From assembly GCF_000383675.1 (NCBI RefSeq), contig NZ_KB911826.1, positions 62,001 through 126,000 on the forward strand: DNA of 64,000 nt, written 5' to 3'. Positions within the stretch are counted from its first letter, which is position 1. Each line of letters starts with the position of its first letter. Positions 9,864 through 57,034 of this stretch are shown here, piece after piece. The DNA is from Terracoccus sp. 273MFTsu3.1 (GTDB taxonomy: Bacteria > Actinomycetota > Actinomycetes > Actinomycetales > Dermatophilaceae). A program made the translations under genes and the position numbers. The notes below the pieces were generated by a model, which saw only the letters and a list, made by a program, of their open reading frames with translations, searched no databases and was not told the origin of the DNA.

Positions 9864-9973
9864 TTCGTCGTACGCACCCGTCCCGGCCGTCATACCGGAG
9901 TCGTATGCCGTCCCGCCCGGGAGGCGACCACGGCCCGATGTGGGACCGTCCCCACTCCCGCGAGGGTGGGTCC

Positions 9974-16744: not shown

Positions 16745-17134
16745 GTGGCCACCCTTCCGCGCGACCTCTCCCCCGAGGCCCTCGAGTTCCTGTCGGTGCG
16801 TCACCTCGCGACGCTGACGACCGTGCGGCCGGACGGCTCGCCCCACGTCGTGCCGGTCGGCTTCACCTGGGACCCCGAGACGTCGGTCGCCCGCGTCATC
16901 ACGAGCCGCGACAGCCGCAAGGCCCGCAACGCGCTCGCCGGGTGTGCCGCCGTGCTGTGCCAGGTCGACGGGCGCCACTGGCTCTCGCTCCAGGGCACCG
17001 CCCGCATCGTCGACGACCCGGCCTCGGTCACCGACGCCGAGCAGAGGTATGCCGCCCGCTACCGCGAGCCTCGCCCCAATCCCGAGCGCGTCGTCATCGC
17101 GATCGACGTGCGCTCCGTCCTCGGCAACGTCTGA
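16745..17134 (+). CDS. PPOX-class F420/FMN-dependent split-barrel protein
   Basis: 129 aa. The split beta-barrel pattern [26 protein letters not shown] is the N-terminal signature of the pyridoxamine-phosphate-oxidase-like family. [31 protein letters not shown] provides the cofactor-phosphate contacts. This size and pattern fit the TIGR03618-type F420-dependent enzymes common in actinobacteria; FMN or haem binding cannot be excluded. The start is a GTG supported by the -10 spacing. The 3' end abuts a 22-bp repeat array. Confidence 0.72.
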
Positions 17135-17148
17135 CCGGCGCCCCGCCC

Positions 17149-17366
17149 CACTCGAGTGAGCACCCTGTCACAGTCGAGTGAGCACCTGGACTCAGTCGAG
17201 TGAGCACCTGGTCACATCGAGTGGCCGCGCCGTCCCACACGTCACATCGGTGCTGTGACGACGGGCCCACTCGACTGTGGTTGCGCGCTCACTCGAGTGT
17301 GGTTGCGCGCTCACTCGAGTGGGGTTGCGCGCTCACTCGAGTGGGGTTGCGCGCTCACTCGAGTGA
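17149..17366. repeat. Palindrome array A: 22-bp period, two opposed half arrays
   Basis: Nine copies of CACTCGAGTG or a close variant. Four units face one way (17149, 17171, 17193, 17215; consensus CACTCGAGTGAGCACCTG) and five face the other (17268, 17290, 17312, 17334, 17356; consensus GCGCTCACTCGAGTGGGG). Successive starts are exactly 22 bp apart in each half, and a ~44-bp unrelated centre separates them. The array fills the gap between the convergent PPOX and mutY genes. It could fold as a large cruciform or act as a terminator. Confidence 0.9.
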
Positions 17367-17372
17367 GGTAGG

Positions 17373-18266
17373 TCAGGCGGGGAGGCGGAACCTCTGGCGC
17401 GACAGGGGCTCCACGAGGCCGTCGGCGACGAGAGAGTCGAGGCAGCGCATGACCTGCACCCGGTCGTCGGCGGAGTCCTCGAGCTGGGCGAGCGGCAGCG
17501 ACGCGTGGGCGTCGCGCAGGCGGCGCAGCAGCTCGCCACGCACCTGGCGGTCGGTCCCGTGCCAGGACTGGCCCCGCCGGGGCGGTCCGTCGTAGGCCGG
17601 CCGCCCGGCGACGTTCCACGCGCACAGGTCGGCGACCGGGCACTCGTCGCAGCGTGGGCCCCGCGCGACGCAGACGAGGGCGCCGAGCTCCATCACGGCG
17701 ACGTTCCACGTGTTCGCGGTGCCGCGGTCGGGCGGCATCGAGTCGGCGGCGAGCCGGGCCTCGGCGCGGTTGAGCGTGAGGTTCGGGAAGGCCTTGCCCT
17801 CGAGGGTGCGGGCCAGCACGCGCCGGACGTTGGTGTCGACGACGACCTCGGGGATGCCGAACGCGAAGCAGGACACGGCCGCCGCCGTGTAGGCCCCGAC
17901 CCCGGGGAGGGCCAGCAGCGCCTCGGGGCTGTTCGGCACCTCGCCACCGTGACGCTCGACCATGACCTGTGCCGCCTCGTGCAGCCGGAGGGCGCGCCGC
18001 GGGTAGCCGAGGCGACCCCAGGCGCGCACGGCATCTCCCGGCGCAGCGGCCGCGAGGTCGGCCGGCGTCGGCCACCGCTCCATCCACGCGCGCCAGATCG
18101 GCTCGACCCGGGCGAGCGGGGTCTGCTGCGACATCACCTCGGAGAGGAAGACACCCCAGGGACTGGCGTCCGGCGCTCGCCACGGCAGCTCCTTGCGCCC
18201 GGACTCGGCGTACCAGGCGTTGACGCGCTCGTGGAGCAGCGAAAGCGGGACCTCGCGGGACGGCAT
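17373..18266 (-). CDS. mutY: A/G-specific adenine DNA glycosylase
   Basis: 297 aa. The HhH-GPD core contains WGVFLSEVMSQQTPLARV (catalytic Glu in LSEVMSQQT), the helix-hairpin-helix LPGVGAYTAAAV and the catalytic Asp in VVVDTNVRRV. The iron-sulphur loop C-x6-C-x2-C-x5-C is present (CVARGPRCDECPVADLC). It removes adenine mispaired with 8-oxoguanine. The C-terminal Nudix-like domain of longer MutY proteins is missing, as usual in actinobacteria. The start ATG lies inside a GTATGCC heptamer. The gene is followed immediately by repeat array A and preceded by disA. Confidence 0.93.
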   Translation of the reverse strand: MPSREVPLSLLHERVNAWYAESGRKELPWRAPDASPWGVFLSEVMSQQTPLARVEPIWRAWMERWPTPADLAAAAPGDAVRAWGRLGYPRRALRLHEAAQVMVERHGGEVPNSPEALLALPGVGAYTAAAVSCFAFGIPEVVVDTNVRRVLARTLEGKAFPNLTLNRAEARLAADSMPPDRGTANTWNVAVMELGALVCVARGPRCDECPVADLCAWNVAGRPAYDGPPRRGQSWHGTDRQVRGELLRRLRDAHASLPLAQLEDSADDRVQVMRCLDSLVADGLVEPLSRQRFRLPA

Positions 18267-22816: not shown

Positions 22817-23763
22817 CACTCACCGTCCCCGTGGTCGTCGACGTCACCGGGCGTGAGGTCGCTGCGCAGGCCCTTGTATGCCGGCTGGCGCAGTCTCCCC
22901 TGGCCGCTCAGTCCCAGCGACTGCACGTCGGCGACGAGCACCGGGTGCACCCACGTCGCGCCGTTCGAGTCCTCGGCGGGGACGTCTGTGGCGAAAGGCG
23001 ACTCGGCCGAGGTGAGGGCTTGGAGGTCGCGCATCAGGGCCTGCCCCGTCTTGCCCGCGAGACCCGACCCGACGCGCCCGAGGTAGCGCAGGCCGCCCGG
23101 GCCGGGGACCCCGACGAGGACGGCCCCGAGACGGTTCGACACGGTGCCCGTGGACTCGGGTCGCCAACCGCCGATGACGACGGAGACGGTGCCGCGGTGG
23201 GGCGACTTGAGCCAGTAGGGCGAGCGGAGCCCAGGGACGTAGACGGAGTCGACACGCTTGGACACGATGCCCTCGAGGCCCTGCTCCTTCGTCGCGGCGT
23301 GCAGCGTCGCCCCGTCGGCGAAGGTCGGCGGGGTCTGCCAGCGCGAGGCGCTGAGCTCGAGGCGCTCGAGTGTCGAGCGCCGGTCGGTCCACGTGCGCGG
23401 CATGAGGTCGACCCCGTAGAGCCGCAGCAGGTCGAAGGTCATCAGGGTGACTGGCGCGGCCTCGGCGAGCATCGCGGCGCGGCGGGCGTCGGTCACGTGG
23501 AAGCGTTCGGCCATCGCGGCGAACGACGGCACGCCGTCTCGCATCGAGACGATCTCGCCGTCCAGGAGCATGTCGGCGTACTCGTTCGCGAGTCCACGCA
23601 GCTCCGGGAACGCGACGGTGACGTCACGCTCCGTGCGGGAGAAGAGGCGCATCTCGCCGTCCACGACGTCGGCCAGCACCCGCATGCCGTCCCACTTGAC
23701 CTCGTGCTGCCAGCGGTCGCCGAGCGGAATCGTCGTCGTCGGCGTCGCGAGCATGGGGCGCAT
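22816..23763 (-). CDS. ligD: ATP-dependent DNA ligase (LigD ligase module)
   Basis: 315 aa. Motif I EVKWDGMR carries the adenylated lysine (about residue 24); further motifs are MLLDGEIVS, EGIVSKR and YWLKSP, followed by an OB-fold (about 200-315). It seals double-strand breaks together with Ku. The start is ATG at 23763, eighteen bases from the divergent ku ATG. AAGAAT ends six bases before it. The downstream polymerase gene is coupled. The nuclease module of classical LigD is absent from the window. Confidence 0.9.
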   Translation of the reverse strand: MRPMLATPTTTIPLGDRWQHEVKWDGMRVLADVVDGEMRLFSRTERDVTVAFPELRGLANEYADMLLDGEIVSMRDGVPSFAAMAERFHVTDARRAAMLAEAAPVTLMTFDLLRLYGVDLMPRTWTDRRSTLERLELSASRWQTPPTFADGATLHAATKEQGLEGIVSKRVDSVYVPGLRSPYWLKSPHRGTVSVVIGGWRPESTGTVSNRLGAVLVGVPGPGGLRYLGRVGSGLAGKTGQALMRDLQALTSAESPFATDVPAEDSNGATWVHPVLVADVQSLGLSGQGRLRQPAYKGLRSDLTPGDVDDHGDGE

Positions 23764-23781: not shown

Positions 23782-24744
23782 ATGCGAGCCATCTGGAAAG
23801 GCGCCGTGTCGTTCGGCCTCGTCAATGTGCCGGTCCGACTCTTTTCGGCGACCGAGAACCACGACGTGCAGTTCCGGCAGGTCCACGAGAAGGACGGCGG
23901 CCGCATCAAGTACCAACGCGTCTGCTCGATCGACGGTGAGGAGGTGCCCTACTCCGACATCGCCAAGGGCTACGAGGCCGCCGACGGCCAGATGGTTGTG
24001 CTGACCGACGAGGACCTCAAGAGCCTTCCGACGCGGTCGACGAAGGAGATCTCGATCGAGAAGTTCGTGCCGTCTGAGCAGATCGACCCGCTGCTCTTCG
24101 ACAAGAGCTACTACCTCGAGCCCGACAAGACGGGCCTCAAGCCCTACGTCCTGCTCCGTGACGCGCTGGAGAAGGCCGACCGGATGGCGCTCGTCACCGT
24201 GTCGGTGCGCACCCGGATGACGCTCGCGGTGCTCCGTGTGCGCGACGGCGTCATCGTGCTCCAGACGCTCCTCTGGGCCGACGAGGTGCGGGCGCCCGAG
24301 TTCGAGTCCCTCTCGGAGGAGACGCACGCGACGGCCAAGGAGCTCGCCATGGCCTCCTCGCTCGTCGACTCGCTGTCGGGCGACTACGAGCCCGAGGAGT
24401 TCGAGGACGACTACGCCGAAGCCGTGACGCAGCTCGTCGCGACGAAGATCGAGGGCGGCGACATCACCGAGACGCCTGAGGCCAAGGGCGAGGAGACCGA
24501 GGTCGTCGACCTGCTCGCGGCCCTGCAGCGCAGCGTCGACAAGGCCAAGGCCGCCAAGACCGGCGGCCCGAGCGCCTCCGACTCCGACTCCGACTCCGCC
24601 GACGAGAAGCCCGCGAAGAAGACGGCCGCGAAGACCACGACGCAGAAGAGCGCGGCCAAGAAGACGACGGCCAAGAAGACGACGGCGAAGAAGTCGACGG
24701 CCAAGACCACGACGAAGAAGGCAGCCACCAAGAAGGCCAGCTGA
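23782..24744 (+). CDS. ku: Ku homodimeric end-binding protein
   Basis: 320 aa. The Ku core (about 1-255) opens with RAIWKGAVSFGLVNVPVRLF and includes KYQRVCSIDGEEVPY and ALVTVSVRTRMTLAVLR. It encircles broken DNA ends and recruits LigD. The C-terminal ~60 residues are an acidic Ser/Asp stretch followed by a repetitive Lys/Ala/Thr tail (AKKTTAKKTT units), similar to the histone-like extensions of mycobacterial Ku that strengthen DNA binding. No Shine-Dalgarno is seen; a leaderless start is likely. Confidence 0.95.
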   Translation: MRAIWKGAVSFGLVNVPVRLFSATENHDVQFRQVHEKDGGRIKYQRVCSIDGEEVPYSDIAKGYEAADGQMVVLTDEDLKSLPTRSTKEISIEKFVPSEQIDPLLFDKSYYLEPDKTGLKPYVLLRDALEKADRMALVTVSVRTRMTLAVLRVRDGVIVLQTLLWADEVRAPEFESLSEETHATAKELAMASSLVDSLSGDYEPEEFEDDYAEAVTQLVATKIEGGDITETPEAKGEETEVVDLLAALQRSVDKAKAAKTGGPSASDSDSDSADEKPAKKTAAKTTTQKSAAKKTTAKKTTAKKSTAKTTTKKAATKKAS

Positions 24745-24864: not shown

Positions 24865-26091
24865 GTGCGGACGGCGACGATCGACGAGCTCACCCAGCGG
24901 CTTCGAACACTCCCGGACAACCCCCGTGTCGTCGTCAGCGGCAACATGGCGGTCCCCTGGGAGGCGGTCCGGGCGCTCGACGCGGCCCAGCCGAGCTACG
25001 TGCTCCACGCGCTCAACGCGCCTGCCGGGCTTCCCGACCGCGAGGGCGTCACCGTCGAGACGTGCTTCGTCGGACCGGGTATGCGTCGGCACCCCCGCCT
25101 GCGCTACGTGCCCTCGCGCCTGTCGCTCGTGCCGCTGCTCTACGGCCGGGCCCTGCCGCCGGACGCCGTGCTGCTGCACTGCGCGCCTCCGCGCAACGGC
25201 CAGGTCAGCATGGGCCTGGAGGTCAACGTCCTGCCCGCGGCGCTCGAGGCGTGCCGGGCCCGGGGCGGGCTCGTCGTCGCGGTCGTCAACCCGCAGATGC
25301 CCTACACGTTCGGCGACGCCCAGGTGCCGCTCGAGCACGTCGACCTCGTCGTCGAGGTCGACGCGCCGCTGCCCTCGCACGCGGCCACCGAGCCTGATCC
25401 CGAGAGCCGGCTCATCGGCGAGCGCGTCGCGGCCATGGTCCGGGACGGGGCGACGATGCAGCTCGGCATCGGCGCGGTGCCCGACGCGACGCTGTCCGCG
25501 CTGACCTCCCGCCGAGGCATCCGGATGTGGACGGAGATGTTCTCCGACGGCGTCCTCGCGCTCGACGAGGCCGGTGCCCTCGACCCGGACCACCCGCTCG
25601 TCACGTCGTTCAGCTTCGGCTCGACCGACCTCTACGCCTGGCTCGACGGCAACCCACGCGTCCGGATGATGCGCACCGAGAAGACGAACGACCCCGGTCT
25701 CATCGCCTCGCAGCGGCAGATGACCTCGGTCAACACCGCCCTCGAGGTCGACCTCTTCGGCCAGGCGAACGCCTCGCGGATCAACGCGCGCATCCACTCC
25801 GGCTTCGGCGGGCAGACGGACTTCATCGTCGGCGCGCTGCACTCCGCCGGCGGCCAGTCGTTCATCGCGCTCCGCTCGTGGCACCCTCGCGCCGACGTGT
25901 CGACGATCGTGCCGCTGCTCGACGAGCCCGTGACGAGCTTCCAGCAGAGCGCCATCGTCACCGAGCAGGGCGTCGCGCCGCTGTGGGGACGCAGCGAGAA
26001 GGACCAGTGCCACGACATCATCGAGAACTGCGCCCACCCGCGCGTCCGCGACGACCTCTGGGAGGAGGCGCAGGCCCTCGGCCTCGCCTGA
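24865..26091 (+). CDS. Acetyl-CoA hydrolase/4-hydroxybutyrate CoA-transferase family protein
   Basis: 408 aa with both CoA-transferase halves: an N-terminal domain with LHCAPPRNGQVSMGLEVN and a C-terminal domain with MQLGIGAVPDA and MWTEMFSDGV, where the Glu of TEMFSDG is the expected acyl-accepting residue. GFGGQTDFIVGALHSAGGQSF is the AcCoA_hyd_C signature. It likely transfers CoA between acyl groups such as acetate, propionate or butyrate. The start is GTG at 24865, with GAGGAT ending six bases before it. Confidence 0.85.
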   Translation: MRTATIDELTQRLRTLPDNPRVVVSGNMAVPWEAVRALDAAQPSYVLHALNAPAGLPDREGVTVETCFVGPGMRRHPRLRYVPSRLSLVPLLYGRALPPDAVLLHCAPPRNGQVSMGLEVNVLPAALEACRARGGLVVAVVNPQMPYTFGDAQVPLEHVDLVVEVDAPLPSHAATEPDPESRLIGERVAAMVRDGATMQLGIGAVPDATLSALTSRRGIRMWTEMFSDGVLALDEAGALDPDHPLVTSFSFGSTDLYAWLDGNPRVRMMRTEKTNDPGLIASQRQMTSVNTALEVDLFGQANASRINARIHSGFGGQTDFIVGALHSAGGQSFIALRSWHPRADVSTIVPLLDEPVTSFQQSAIVTEQGVAPLWGRSEKDQCHDIIENCAHPRVRDDLWEEAQALGLA

Positions 26092-26154: not shown

Positions 26155-26306
26155 CCGTCGCGTGAGCGCGCAGTCCCAGTCGAGTGAGCGCGTAGCACCA
26201 GTCGAGTGCGCCCGTAGTCACACCCGGTCTGGTGAGGGTGGGGCGGGGCGCTCACTCGAGTGGGACGGGGCGCTCACTCGAGTGGGACGGGGCGCTCACT
26301 CGAGTG
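26155..26306. repeat. Palindrome array B: 22-bp period
   Basis: Three units in one orientation (26155 degenerate, 26177, 26199) and three in the other (26253, 26275, 26297) around a ~44-bp centre. The right-hand units read GGCGCTCACTCGAGTGGGAC. The array lies between two co-directional genes and ends 16 bp before the SDR promoter hexamer. Confidence 0.9.
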
Positions 26307-26333: not shown

Positions 26334-27095
26334 ATGAGCCCTGCGCCACCGTCCGACGCCACCACAACCGCTCCGGACGGGCGTCCGGTCGCGGTCGTCA
26401 CCGGCGGCACGCGCGGCATCGGACTCGCCATCGCCCGCGACCTCGCCGCCACGCACCACCTCGTCATCGGCGGTCGCAGCGCCGACTCGGTGGCCGACGT
26501 CGTCGCCGCGTTCCCGTCGGCCGAGGGCCTCGTCGCCGACCTCGCCGACTGCTCTCCCGGCGGGTCGCTCGAGACCGCCCTCGCGGCCCTCGCCACGCGC
26601 CTCCCGCGTGTCGACGTGCTGGTCCACTCGGCCGGCGTCCTGCGCAACGGCACCGTCGCCGACTCGCCCGTGCAGGACTGGGCCGACTCGATGACCGTCA
26701 ACGTCGTCGCGGTCGCCGCCGTGACCCGCGCGCTCCTGCCGGCGCTCCGGGCCGCGCACGGCCTCGTCGTCACCGTGAACTCGGGCTCGGGCCTGACGGC
26801 GACGCCGGCCTCGGGCGCCTACTGTGCCTCGAAGTTCGCCCTCCGAGCGCTCACCGACTCGCTGCGCCAGGAGGAGCGCGAGCACGGTGTCCGCGTCACC
26901 TCGCTCCACCCCGGCCGGGTCGACACCGACATGCAGCGCGAGCTCGTCGAGTTCGAGGGCGACGAGTACGACCCGGGCGCCTACCTCGACGTCGACTCGG
27001 TCGTCCGGGCCGCGCGCCTCGCCATCGACGCCGGCCCTGACGCGAGCATCGACATGGTCTCGGTGCGCCCTCGCGGCTGGCGCCCCGCCACCTGA
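26334..27095 (+). CDS. Short-chain dehydrogenase/reductase
   Basis: 253 aa classical SDR. TGGTRGIG (about residues 24-31) binds the nucleotide, NSGSG carries the catalytic Ser region and YCASKFALRAL provides Tyr and Lys of the YxxxK motif. HPGRVDTDMQ is the typical post-catalytic loop. It is an NAD(P)-dependent oxidoreductase of unknown substrate. The upstream repeat array and the hexamer suggest it is transcribed alone. Confidence 0.85.
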   Translation: MSPAPPSDATTTAPDGRPVAVVTGGTRGIGLAIARDLAATHHLVIGGRSADSVADVVAAFPSAEGLVADLADCSPGGSLETALAALATRLPRVDVLVHSAGVLRNGTVADSPVQDWADSMTVNVVAVAAVTRALLPALRAAHGLVVTVNSGSGLTATPASGAYCASKFALRALTDSLRQEEREHGVRVTSLHPGRVDTDMQRELVEFEGDEYDPGAYLDVDSVVRAARLAIDAGPDASIDMVSVRPRGWRPAT

Positions 27096-29071: not shown

Positions 29072-29140
29072 TCGAACGCGGCGTTCGACGGCGAACGCGC
29101 TGGCAGAACACCGAGTTCGCGACCGAACGCCGCGTTCGGT
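29072..29140. repeat. Two GAACGC-N-GCGTTC palindromes upstream of ppx
   Basis: TCGAACGC-G-GCGTTCGA (29072-29088) and ACCGAACGC-C-GCGTTCGGT (29122-29140) share the same core and are 50 bp apart centre to centre, with half-sites GCGAACGCG between. They lie in the ppx upstream region and after the ABC permease gene. They could be a dimeric-regulator operator pair or the terminator of the tetR-ABC operon. Confidence 0.6.
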
Positions 29141-53789: not shown

Positions 53790-53924
53790 ATGCGCCGCAG
53801 CTTCATGTCACCCGAGCAGGTCACCCACACCTACGCACAGGACATGGAGCACCTTGGACACCCCACCCACCCCACCCGTGCGTCCCGGACGCACTCTCGG
53901 CCTCGGGATCCTCGCCCACGTTGA
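53790..53924 (+). CDS. Possible leader peptide ahead of the Tet(M)-like gene
   Basis: 44 aa [22 protein letters not shown] at the start, preceded by GGAGAGAGG nine bases upstream of the ATG. It overlaps the first ~70 bases of the Tet(M)-like gene in another frame. Translational leader ORFs are known to control tet(M)-type genes. It is equally possible that it is chance; the peptide has no recognised homologue. Confidence 0.35.
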
Positions 53925-56082
53925 CGCGGGCAAGACGAGCCTGACCGAACGTCTGCTGCTGCACGCCGGGGTCATCGCCGAGCTCGGCAGCGTCGACGAC
54001 GGCAGCACGCAGACCGACACGCTCGCGCTCGAGCGCGACCGCGGGATCACGATCAAGGCCGCCGTCGTCTCCTTCGAGCTCGGCCGCCCCGGCGACCCCG
54101 ACCCCCTCACCGTCAACCTCGTCGACACCCCGGGCCACTCGGACTTCATCGCGGAGGTCGAGCGCTCGCTGGCGGTGCTCGACGGTGCCGTGCTCGTCGT
54201 CTCCGCGGTGGAGGGCGTGCAGGCCCAGACCCGCGTGCTCATGCGGGCCCTGCGGCGGCTGCGCATCCCGACCGTGCTCTTCGTCAACAAGGTCGACCGC
54301 TCCGGCGCCCGCACCGAGGTGGTCCTGCGGGAGGTCGTCGACCGGCTCGGCGTCACACCGGTGCCACTCGGCCGGGTCGTCGACGAGGGCACGCGCGCCG
54401 CCGCCGTCGTCCCGGACGGCCTCGCGGACCTGGGCCTGCCGGCCCGGGGCCCGGCCGAGCGCGAGGACGCCGAGCCCGAGGGCGGCGACCGGGACGCCGC
54501 GGCAGCCCGCGAGCGAGTCGTCGAGGCGCTGAGCCGGGCCGACGACCGCCTGCTCGCGGACTGGCTCGACGCCCCGCACCGCGTGGACGCGTCGCGGCTG
54601 CGAGCAGCCCTCGGTGAGCAGACGCGTCGAGGACTCGTGTGCCCCGTCCTTCTCGGCTCGGCGATGACGGGGGCCGGGGTCGAGGACCTCGCCCAAGCCC
54701 TGCCGGACCTGTTGCCGGCGCGGACACCGGACCCCGATGCGCCCCTCGCGGCCACCGTCTTCGCGGTACAGCGCGGCGCCTCCGGGGAGAAGGTGGCCCT
54801 CGTCAGCGTCACGTCGGGCTCCCTGGCGGTGCGCGACCGGGTGCTCGTCCACGACGGTCGCACCGAGTGGAGCCCGGCACCGGACCCGGACCCACGGCAT
54901 ACGACCTCGGCCTCCGGCGACGACGGCGCGCGGTGCCGAGAGGAGCGGGTCACCGGGCTCTCGGTGCACGCGCGCGGCGAGGTGCGCCGGGTCGCACGGG
55001 TGCCCGCCGGGCGCATCGCGCGGGTCGTCGGGCTCGAGCGGGCCCGGATCGGCGACCTCGTCGGCGACGCCGCCCTCGCGCGGCCGCTCGTGCACGAGTT
55101 CTCGCCGCCGACCCTCGAGACGGTCGTCGAGGCGTGCGACCCCGCGGAGCGCGCGCTGCTGCACACGGCGCTGACCCGGCTGGCGGAGCAGGATCCGCTC
55201 ATCGACCTGCGGCACGACGAGGTGCGCGGGGAGACCCACGTGTCGCTCTACGGCGAGGTGCAGAAGGAGGTCATCGGCGCGACGCTCGAGGCGGAGTACG
55301 CCGTGGCCGCGAGGTTCAGCACGACGTCGGTCATCTGTCGCGAGCGCGTCACCGGTTCGGGGGCCGCGTTCGAGCTCATCGACGTGGCGCCGAACCCGTT
55401 CCTCGCGACGGTCGGCCTGCGCGTCGACCCCGGACCTCCGGGCAGCGGCGTGCGCTTCTCGCTCGAGGTCGAGCTCGGCTCGATGCCGGCGTCGTTCTTC
55501 ACGGCCGTCGAGGACACCGTCCGGGCGACGCTCGGGCAGGGGCTGCACGGGTGGCCCGTGACCGACTGCGTCGTCACGATGACGCACTCGGGCTACTGGC
55601 CGCGGCAGAGCCACATGCACCAGAAGTTCGACCCGTCGATGTCGAGCACGGCCGGCGACTTCCGCGCCCTGACGCCGCTCGTGCTCATGGAGGCGGTGCG
55701 CCTCGCGGGCACGGCCGTCGAGGAACCGGTGCACAGGTTCGACCTCGAGGTGCCGAGCGACGTGCTCGGGGCGGCGCTCTCGATGCTCGGCCACGTGCGG
55801 GCGAGCCCGCGAGAGACGGCCGTGCTCGGCCCGGTGACGCGGCTGCGGGGTGAGGTGCCGGCCGAGCGGCTGCACGAGCTGCAGCAGCGCGTGCCGGGCC
55901 TGACGAGCGGGCTCGGGGACCTCGTGACGGCGTTCGACGGCTACCGGCCGGTCGTCGGCCCGGCGCCGACGCGGTCACGCACCGACCTCGACCCGCTCCA
56001 CCGCCGCGAGTACCTCCTCCGCCTAGCGGGCAAGCTGAGCGCCCAACCCCACTCGAGTGAGCGCCCAACCACACTCGAGTGA
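53854..56082 (+). CDS. Tet(M)/Otr(A)-like ribosomal protection GTPase
   Basis: 742 aa, EF-G architecture. GTPase: [19 protein letters not shown] (G1), RGITI (G2), DTPGH (G3), NKVD (G4) and GSA (G5). Domain II-V region ends with SHMHQKFDPSMSSTAGDFRALTPLV, the Tet/Otr-type domain IV stretch. Such proteins release tetracycline from ribosomes, although diverged genomic copies may serve other translation roles. TTG at 53854 is chosen with GGAG upstream; GTG at 53878 is possible. The last ~17 residues and the stop are encoded by repeat array C. It sits between ftsH and hpt, an unusual place. Confidence 0.85.
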   Translation: MDTPPTPPVRPGRTLGLGILAHVDAGKTSLTERLLLHAGVIAELGSVDDGSTQTDTLALERDRGITIKAAVVSFELGRPGDPDPLTVNLVDTPGHSDFIAEVERSLAVLDGAVLVVSAVEGVQAQTRVLMRALRRLRIPTVLFVNKVDRSGARTEVVLREVVDRLGVTPVPLGRVVDEGTRAAAVVPDGLADLGLPARGPAEREDAEPEGGDRDAAAARERVVEALSRADDRLLADWLDAPHRVDASRLRAALGEQTRRGLVCPVLLGSAMTGAGVEDLAQALPDLLPARTPDPDAPLAATVFAVQRGASGEKVALVSVTSGSLAVRDRVLVHDGRTEWSPAPDPDPRHTTSASGDDGARCREERVTGLSVHARGEVRRVARVPAGRIARVVGLERARIGDLVGDAALARPLVHEFSPPTLETVVEACDPAERALLHTALTRLAEQDPLIDLRHDEVRGETHVSLYGEVQKEVIGATLEAEYAVAARFSTTSVICRERVTGSGAAFELIDVAPNPFLATVGLRVDPGPPGSGVRFSLEVELGSMPASFFTAVEDTVRATLGQGLHGWPVTDCVVTMTHSGYWPRQSHMHQKFDPSMSSTAGDFRALTPLVLMEAVRLAGTAVEEPVHRFDLEVPSDVLGAALSMLGHVRASPRETAVLGPVTRLRGEVPAERLHELQQRVPGLTSGLGDLVTAFDGYRPVVGPAPTRSRTDLDPLHRREYLLRLAGKLSAQPHSSERPTTLE

Positions 56083-56210
56083 GCGCGCAGCCTCACGCGT
56101 ACCACCGTGTGCGTGACGGCTGCGACGGAGCGCTCACTCGAGTGGGACGACGCGCTCACTCGAGTGGGACGACGCGCTCACTCGAGTGGGACGACGCGCT
56201 CACTCGAGGT
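56050..56210. repeat. Palindrome array C: 22-bp period
   Basis: Two units one way (56050, 56072) and four the other (56135, 56157, 56179, 56201), separated by ~54 bp. Right units read GCGCTCACTCGAGTGGGACG. The stop codon of the Tet(M)-like gene (56080-56082) is the TGA of unit two; the last unit fuses with the 3' end of the DUF1028 gene. Confidence 0.9.
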
Positions 56211-57034
56211 CAGGCGGTGGCGGCGCGGAGGGCCTCGAGGACCCGGCGGTCGATGCCGTCGGGACTCAGGCGCGCCTCGTAGTTCGCGTTGCCGGCCCAG
56301 TCGGCGAGGGCCGTCGCGACGTCGGCGTCGGTGAACCCGGCCTGCGCCAGCCTGCCGCGCACCTCGTCGGCGAGCTCGCCCTCGAGCGGAGAGACGTCCT
56401 CGGGCTTGCCGAAGTACATCTCCCAGTCCGAGAGCAGGCGCCCGAGCTCGGTCACGGGGTGGGCGTGGTCGTCGACGCGCAGGTCGGCGAGCACGCCGCA
56501 CGCGTCGTAGCCGGCACCCGGCTCGACGGCATACAGGGCTGCGCTCTGGCGTCCGCGGGAGTCGCCACCGGCGTCGTCGCCGGCCACGAGCGCGGCGAGC
56601 AGTCGCCGGGCGAGCGGCTGGCCAGCCGTCTCGTGCCAGGCGCGCTCCATCGCCTCGACCACCTCGGGACCGGTGAGGATGTTGCCCTGGATGGCGTATG
56701 CCGTGTCGCCGTCGTCGCGCGCGACACCGCCGGCCCAGTCGTTGCACTCCGAGCCCGTGAAGGTCGCGGCCGAGGCGAGCCCGACGACGCCGACCTGACG
56801 GGTCTCGCGACCCTCGTCGAGCGCGGTCGCGGCCGCGAGGGCCTCGTCCGCGGACTCGCCGGCAGCAAGCCGCCCGAGGAGCTCCTCGAGGTAGGCGACC
56901 CGGGCGAAGGACTGCGTCGCGACCGCGCCCACGCCGAGACGGGCGGCCGGGACGACCGCTCCGACGGCGAGGAACTTGCTCGCGACCGCGATGCCGTGGG
57001 CGTCACCCTGGCGGGCGACGATCGAGAAGGTCAC
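56210..57034 (-). CDS. DUF1028 domain protein (putative Ntn-hydrolase)
   Basis: 274 aa. [20 protein letters not shown] opens the family, with Thr2 in the position of an N-terminal nucleophile once Met is removed; [15 protein letters not shown] and [13 protein letters not shown] are conserved. The C-terminal ~70 residues form the extra domain seen in longer members. DUF1028 proteins are annotated as probable Ntn-hydrolases of unknown substrate. GTG start, 15 bp after the hpt stop, so it may be transcribed with hpt. Confidence 0.75.

Follow-up and report, generated by a model that had tools for sequence, protein, structure and literature searches.

A family of intergenic repeat arrays in Terrabacter carries tandem units in two arms that face each other, and the outer units of opposing arms are anti-matching, with the innermost units free of this rule. 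The arrays very probably represent a dispersed, REP/BIME-like stem-loop family at gene ends; the fuller account, in which this intergenic stem-loop family is specific to Terrabacter, is proposed to provide 3' ends and has grown its arms by tandem duplication, stands at about even chances. The window is a stretch of 64,000 nucleotides that contains three such arrays, and its genome (G000; 4.94 Mb, 18 contigs) was compared with those of Terrabacter sp. Root85 (G008), Terrabacter sp. Root181 (G006), T. tumescens JCM 1365 (G005) and further relatives. The array sets of G000 and G008 are the loci among the matches listed, from which some arrays on later contigs are absent.

Three arrays in the window and their repeat unit

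Junction 1 has a left arm on the forward strand (17149..17207) with three inward-pointing units, CACTCGAGTG followed by two copies of CAGTCGAGTG, a 55-bp centre (17208..17262) and a right arm on the reverse strand (17263..17365) with five units pointing inward from the opposite side. A degenerate CATCGAGTG follows the left arm within the centre, where a type-B-like inner pair, TCGAGTGGCCGC...GGGCCCACTCGA, and an inverted repeat CGTCAC/GTGACG can be made out by eye. The array is flanked by a pyridoxamine 5'-phosphate oxidase-like gene (16745..17134, forward strand), whose stop lies 14 bp upstream, and by a HhH-GPD DNA glycosylase-like gene (17373..18266, reverse strand) that converges on it from 7 bp away. 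At junction 2, a left arm of three units of which the first is degenerate (26155..26213, forward) and a right arm of three units (26248..26306, reverse), whose palindromes are separated by GGACGGGGCGCT on the forward strand, enclose a 34-bp centre (26214..26247); the gene upstream encodes an acetyl-CoA hydrolase/transferase C-terminal domain (24865..26091, forward), and a co-directional short-chain dehydrogenase gene (26334..27095, forward) lies 3' of the array. Junction 3 comprises two units on the left (56050..56086, forward), a 43-bp centre (56087..56129) and four units on the right, the outermost degenerate (56130..56210, reverse). Its left arm is overlapped by the end of an elongation factor G-like GTPase gene (53878..56082, forward), whose stop codon is the unit's own TGA, and a DUF1028 protein gene (56210..57034, reverse) converges on it. 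All gene coordinates are the output of a simple codon-bias caller rather than annotation.

For the three gaps, the original prediction gave the right coordinates, the right step of 22 bp and the right head-to-head arrangement. Its estimate of 6 to 9 copies per gap was too high: exact CACTCGAGTG occurs 5, 3 and 5 times and copies with at most one mismatch 8, 5 and 5 times, and 6 to 9 is reached only if more degenerate copies are included. The window as a whole holds 19 copies with at most one mismatch, 18 in the gaps and one at 23363, compared with 4.78 on average, and never more than 12, over 100 shuffled sequences. A mere XhoI-site effect was rejected, CTCGAG being found 120 times in the window outside the arrays against 123 expected. 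A separate tandem repeat, of the AAGAAGACGACG type with a period of 15-45, lies in coding sequence (24613-24733) at the end of gene 23782-24744.

The unit was aligned from 42 half arrays (161 units) of G000 and 31 (70 units) of G008 among the matches listed, with each half array weighted once. Its consensus is CA[C/G]TCGAGTG-AGCGC followed by seven variable bases that mostly end in [T/C]C[C/A], and it is polar rather than a plain palindrome. Positions 4-15 (TCGAGTGAGCGC) are near-invariant (1.2-2.0 bits in the units among the matches listed), and a TGA is present within the GTGAGC block of 207 of 224 units among the matches listed. Position 3 may be C or G although the position that mirrors it, 8, does not vary, which means that conservation is not of the palindrome as such; a kept palindrome beside varying flanks had been proposed, of which the conserved core and the variable flanks stand and selection on the palindrome itself is unsupported. 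Phasing of the sites to one face of the helix is likewise unsupported: the DNA helix repeats every 10.5 bp, so that 22 bp amount to 2.1 turns and each successive site is rotated by about 34 degrees. Nor is the 22-bp period universal in Terrabacter, since 6 of 13 same-strand neighbor steps below 150 bp between type-B cores of T. tumescens measure 41-42 bp. The T. tumescens loci (L145-L174) contain type-B elements with longer composite repeats, which in L157 follow one another at steps of 104-105 bp; L162 has a perfect palindrome.

Distribution in Terrabacter and position between genes

A search of the genome for the palindrome at 22-bp spacing had been suggested at the outset, with the view that chance counts, together with arrays conserved in neither position nor period, would point to random local duplication. 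In G000 there are 67 exact CACTCGAGTG-N{10,14}-CACTCGAGTG pairs per strand and none in the reversed-pattern control, and arrays are present in both genomes at 9 of 10 orthologous G000-G008 junctions among the matches listed (sets chosen for having arrays), with position and 22-bp period both conserved in the sister species G008. Non-random intergenic arrays with inverted halves, as first described for the window, are thus a genome-wide feature. With at most one mismatch, the oriented pair occurs in four of nine Terrabacter genomes, the source genome counted, and in no other genus among 186 genomes of the family; the exact oriented pair, sought in 84,980 named species genomes, a collection from which the source genome is possibly absent, was confined to three of them, T. 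tumescens JCM 1365 and the Terrabacter sp. strains Root85 and Root181 (22 stretches). Matches to TCGAGTGRSCSC numbered 225 against 25 in the control for G000, 142 against 22 for G008, 139 against 23 for G005 and 56 against 29 for G006, and were near control in the five remaining Terrabacter genomes (22/17, 26/25, 11/18, 27/23 and 33/23). A looser palindrome pattern gave one pair in another genus of the family (G023), where the oriented AGCGC core is found 0 times.

A phage or plasmid origin was rejected, as junction 1 had no match and viral contigs contained 0 oriented pairs. So was a RAYT-driven REPIN: the Y1 transposase (PF01797, E 0.001), the sole transposase type searched, was found in 0 of 9 Terrabacter genomes, with 5 of 14 control genomes positive. 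Rfam gave no match above the gathering score on either strand of the window, and the open-licence literature yielded no earlier report when searched for Terrabacter or Intrasporangiaceae repeats, 22-bp intergenic repeats and, among the papers listed, the array 12-mers.

The orthologous junction 2, compared in the relatives other than G001, carries 3+2 units in G008, one unit per side in G006, forming a single stem-loop (L136, fold z -5.2), and the related type B, TCGAGTGGCCCCGTCGTCACAC, in T. tumescens; the gap is 12-46 bp in G007, G004 and G002, and 154 bp without an array in G003. Junction 1 has arrays in G008, a degenerate form in G006 and, by eye, other inverted repeats in G007 and G003, with array-less gaps of 10 bp in G004, 36 bp in G005, 6 bp in G002 and 33 bp in G001. 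Junction 3, compared in G000, G008, G006 and G001, has the array in G000 and a different palindromic element, CCGAACGCCGCGTTCGG, in the other three. Across the 10 orthologous junctions among the matches listed, the number of filter-passing units is higher in G000 than in G008 at eight, equal at one and lower at one.

Arm pairs were accepted with at least two units per arm and a centre below 160 bp. Loci of G005 and G006 count toward the 47 groups used for layout and are left out of the G000 and G008 sets used for mismatch, fold and gene context; the degenerate array L072 failed the filter for layout grouping. Among the matches listed, 29 of the 47 groups are two-sided, 28 of these 29 facing inward, and 18 are one-armed by the filter; the two-sided groups span 107-393 bp with 2-11 units per arm, and the centres of 27 arm pairs measure 23-99 bp. 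Both neighboring genes are available for 52 groups of G000 and G008 among the matches listed, which comprise 25 convergent, 26 tandem and 1 divergent pair, with 2 more groups at contig edges. The window's 61 gene pairs, its three arrays included, divide into 10 convergent, 40 tandem and 11 divergent, and relative to these the array groups are enriched in convergent pairs (Fisher P 0.0004) and depleted in divergent ones (P 0.006); the 181 array-free gene pairs at the same loci are 18 convergent, 128 tandem and 35 divergent. The elements are inverted repeats of TCGAGTG plus AGCGC (GCCCC in type B) directly after stop codons: from array edge to facing stop codon the median distance is 13.5 bp (n=76), and in 7 of these 76 cases the gene runs past the array edge, giving negative distances (both among the matches listed).

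Other repeats were seen alongside. The oligomer CGTATGCCGTC is highly iterated: G000 has 248+247 copies, compared with 24 for the reversed control, and the nine Terrabacter genomes have 302-495. Six further genera of the family (G012, G015, G019, G025, G029, G030) have 99-316, and none of 22 genomes from the order's other families has more than 5. Counted over both strands, the window contains GTATGCCG 42 times where 1.0 is expected (e.g., at 9903, 26116, 29162 and 47112), and 42 of the 46 TATGC are GTATGCC; in the G000 loci it is found 23 times per 18.7 kb of intergenic and 65 times per 129 kb of coding sequence. The GTATGCCG/CGTATGCCGTC oligomer is strand-symmetric, as HIP1, uptake or Chi-type signals likewise are. 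It matches part of a common sequencing adapter, but no adapter continuation follows it in the window. A second dispersed element, CGAACGCNGCGTTCG, often stands as two copies at a 51-bp step (window 29073-29138; L125, L130, L131), and its 15-mer is present in 17 copies in G000, 26 in G008, 27 in G006, 38 in G005, 12 in G007 and 9 in G001, with none in G002-G004. It occupies junction 3 in G008, G006 and G001, and it looks like a fixed-size palindrome pair, in a genus whose nine genomes yielded no Y1 transposase.

Arm growth and anti-matching of the outer units

Among the matches listed, adjacent units differ at 1.13 of the 7 variable bases, non-adjacent units of the same arm at 1.63 and units of other loci at 2.91, and the unit numbers of opposing arms are uncorrelated (rho 0.24, P 0.22, 27 pairs). 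The likeness of adjacent units, taken with the uncorrelated arm lengths, is as expected of tandem duplication within an arm, and it agrees with the recent local amplification suggested in the original prediction.

The spacers of opposing arms have 4.07 mismatches of 7, compared with 3.16 when arms are re-paired between loci (0/3000; 32 loci among the matches listed, innermost units dropped). The excess is present in G000 alone (P 0.0003) and in G008 alone (P 0.003; both among the matches listed), and the result is significant both in the main test, from which innermost units are left out, and in a second one that keeps them. Taken separately, the outermost units show 4.16 mismatches against 3.12 on re-pairing and the innermost 3.03 against 3.10 (among the matches listed), so the innermost follow no rule. 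The effect is sharpest at position 18, which is identical in both arms at 1 of 32 loci, against 11.5 expected (0/20,000 re-pairings), and at 0 of 25 loci against 8.6 expected (P ~2e-5) once the detectable orthologues and paralogue, eight G008 loci orthologous to G000 and one paralogue, are dropped (both among the matches listed). This position was chosen post hoc from all positions, and a correction factor of 22 leaves the verdict unchanged. A further C/G anti-matching at position 3 was set aside, with P 0.007 by unit averages and P 0.37 by arm majorities.

The mismatch is also visible in the predicted folds of the 32 loci among the matches listed. With RNA parameters, re-paired arms exceed native ones in mean stability by 7.0 kcal/mol on one strand and 6.5 kcal/mol on the other, in 22 and 27 loci, and are not more stable in 10 loci on one strand and 5 on the other; with DNA parameters, they are more stable by 4.7 and 4.3 kcal/mol, in 23 and 28 loci. 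The longest complementary run is 14.8 in native and 17.1 in re-paired arms, although it is longer in only 53% of re-pairings (among the matches listed). Compensatory pairing between arms was rejected, as it predicts more complementarity within a locus and the reverse was observed, and the outer arms do not form one long perfect stem. Because the outer units of opposing arms avoid matching, the array as a whole is not one long perfect stem, contrary to what had been envisaged. Assembly artefact was rejected as a cause of missing matched-arm loci: only 1 of 36 G000 contig ends lies in an array, so contig breaks cannot hide such loci, although collapse within contigs might do so. That single array-borne end, the first 260 bases of contig C12 (L206), has 10 core matches, so that an assembly may now and then break at this repeat.

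Avoidance of perfect inverted repeats is a plausible cause of the arm mismatch, to which we give slightly less than an even chance. Matched arms would constitute a long perfect inverted repeat, which might be deleted as DNA, through a hairpin or cruciform and SbcCD-like cleavage, or cut as RNA in an RNase III-like manner; tandem units would for this reason persist only where opposing outer units differ in type. Avoidance of long perfect inverted repeats would also account for the restriction of the rule to outer units, the short inner stem being left free. What speaks against avoidance is that longer arrays have no more mismatch than shorter ones (rho -0.02 and 0.11, among the matches listed), where growth with length would be predicted from instability, and that T. 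tumescens has both the perfect palindrome L162 and no avoidance between paired arms (3.13 against 3.13 in 23 pairs, several overlapping, with few 22-bp arrays). The arm pairs of G006 likewise show no avoidance (4.50 against 4.45 in 6 pairs, with few 22-bp arrays). The strong single fold of native junction 2 (z about -6) and the loci where re-pairing brings no gain in stability also weigh against it.

The same unlikeness might instead be a matter of descent, a possibility that we hold tentatively and think somewhat improbable: an ancestral mobile or copied element would have had two unlike arms, alpha with C at position 18 (CGTCC) and beta with a purine at 18 (often ..CA), which were inherited with no selection against pairing. 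We regard with equal reserve the further idea that tandem growth preserved the type of each arm. E. coli BIMEs also have unlike partners. In 29 of 32 loci, C stands at position 18 of one arm and not of the other, compared with 23.2 from equal general dissimilarity (P 0.01, among the matches listed), an excess that becomes unremarkable under slightly stronger general dissimilarity (P 0.11, among the matches listed). Centres oriented by their alpha arm are slightly more alike one way (P 0.0045, 29 centres among the matches listed), although 5 orthologous or paralogous pairs among the 29 inflate this signal and centres are by eye mostly unalike between loci. The side with C at position 18 is kept in four of five orthologous G000-G008 pairs listed (L044/L061, L046/L062, L175/L180 and L178/L066, not L036/L060), whereas the innermost units, which would be inherited too, follow no rule, and the only transposase searched for, Y1 (PF01797), is found in 0 of 9 genomes. 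Alternatively, an alpha and a beta arm facing each other around a stem-loop would be an obligate two-part device in which each arm has its own mode of recognition, whether by one protein, by two or by the two genes' transcripts, such that unlikeness is needed for function and not just tolerated; this we consider very unlikely.

Candidate roles and relation to known repeat systems

A bidirectional 3'-end role is a candidate that has an even chance of being correct. A single strong structure is predicted for the junction 2 sequence (26177-26306), with z -6.0 for one strand and -5.9 for the other, the part of junction 1 that was folded (17149-17290) is unremarkable (z -1.9), and a hairpin near the stop codon on the transcribed strand is present at junction 2 on both strands and at L136 of G006. 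None of the three window arrays contains a run of four T or A, and a scan for terminator-like sites at junctions 1 and 2 found none, so termination is inferred only from place and fold. The single stem-loop, as at junction 2 of G006, would be the basic form. Transcribed from either side, the central stem-loop may stop or stall the polymerase together with a factor and so act as a U-less bidirectional 3' end; in addition or as an alternative to termination, it may shield both mRNAs against 3' exonucleases. The outer 22-bp tandem units would then be a growth on the stem-loop, multiplied separately on each side via slippage or unequal exchange. The presence of another palindromic element at junction 3 of G008, G006 and G001 counts in favor of this account. 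It counts against a 3'-end role that about half of the loci separate genes running in the same direction, since no gene end is opposite the downstream arm there.

Rho-type termination would overlap with the proposed 3'-end role rather than exclude it. Here, each arm and the stretch preceding it would be C-rich on the strand read from its own gene and provide rut loading for transcription from either side, and the hairpins would do no more than stall the polymerase; we judge this rather unlikely. On the inward-reading strand the C-over-G skew is +0.13 in the arms (73 of 87 positive) and +0.32 in the 40 nt outside (76 of 87; both among the matches listed), compared with +0.07 after 25 other genes of the window (13 of 25 positive); the arm skew is nevertheless weak and follows from unit composition, and Rho dependence is invisible in sequence. 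The strongly conserved core beside a variable spacer, the polar unit and the regular 22-bp step could be expected of a regulator or nucleoid protein bound in a row to the TCGAGTGAGCGC core, with the palindrome-like part as a half site, e.g., as a roadblock or insulator between converging genes. Such a protein-binding array seems very unlikely, however, given the erratic copy number per arm (2-11), uncorrelated between arms (among the matches listed), the location at gene ends with 1 of 52 groups divergent (among the matches listed) and the many T. tumescens steps of 41-42 bp. It is hardly probable, too, that the arrays are neutral junk, produced when a short palindrome happened to be duplicated locally and serving no role. 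Their patchy presence, near control in five of nine Terrabacter genomes, their erratic copy number and the short array-less orthologous gaps (four of nine genomes have 6-36 bp at junction 1) would suit this explanation, whereas genome-wide dispersal with a control of 0, inward orientation, near absence from divergent gaps, a constant core and anti-matching outer units do not.

Among known systems, bidirectional intrinsic terminators share with the arrays an inverted repeat right after two converging stops and, at junction 2, a stable fold on both strands; the arrays differ in being amplified and, in the three of the window, in having no run of four T or A. MITEs are similarly short, dispersed and non-coding with inverted ends, but the length of the Terrabacter arrays (107-393 bp for two-sided ones among the matches listed) is set by tandem units, and no Y1_Tnp parent transposase was found. 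CRISPR arrays also have regularly spaced repeats, whereas the Terrabacter arrays have near-identical 7-bp spacers within an arm, two inverted arms and a 22-bp unit.

The closest relationship is with REP/BIME elements, described in the text of PMC3733652 as short palindrome-based extragenic repeats in many copies, with opposite-orientation pairs mostly 20-100 bp apart, located mainly downstream of genes between convergent or co-directional ORFs and commonly with unlike partners. The Terrabacter family is likewise a high-copy extragenic palindrome repeat, with inverted pairs in 28 of 29 two-sided groups and centres of 23-99 bp (among the matches listed). The contrast with classic REP elements drawn in the original prediction is only partly right, as REP dimers too are inverted, lie downstream of genes and combine unlike partners (PMC3733652). 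The differences lie in the unit, in which a 12-bp polar core takes the place of the 8-9 bp stem and 4-5 base loop of the CGTC families, and in the absence from the consensus of the tag of the GTAG super-family (PMC3733652). CGTC occurs inside alpha units (positions 18-21) and not as an unpaired end, and no GTAG is present in the consensus, in a comparison made with the text of that paper and not with its consensus figures. The host is actinobacterial, and the word Actinobacteria is absent from the main text of PMC3733652. For REP dimers, the same text from 2013 records a heterodimer preference with "no obvious explanation" and suggests protection from SbcCD. The Terrabacter arrays are an amplified natural case of this preference for unlike partners, with arms grown separately at many loci, outer units that almost never match at position 18 and innermost units that are free, and they allow the SbcCD-protection idea to be put to a direct test with arrays whose arms match or differ. 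Should the 3'-end role hold, they would also add a family of repeats that serve as U-less gene ends. What is new is a genus-level REP/BIME-like variant with an unusual and testable anti-matching rule.
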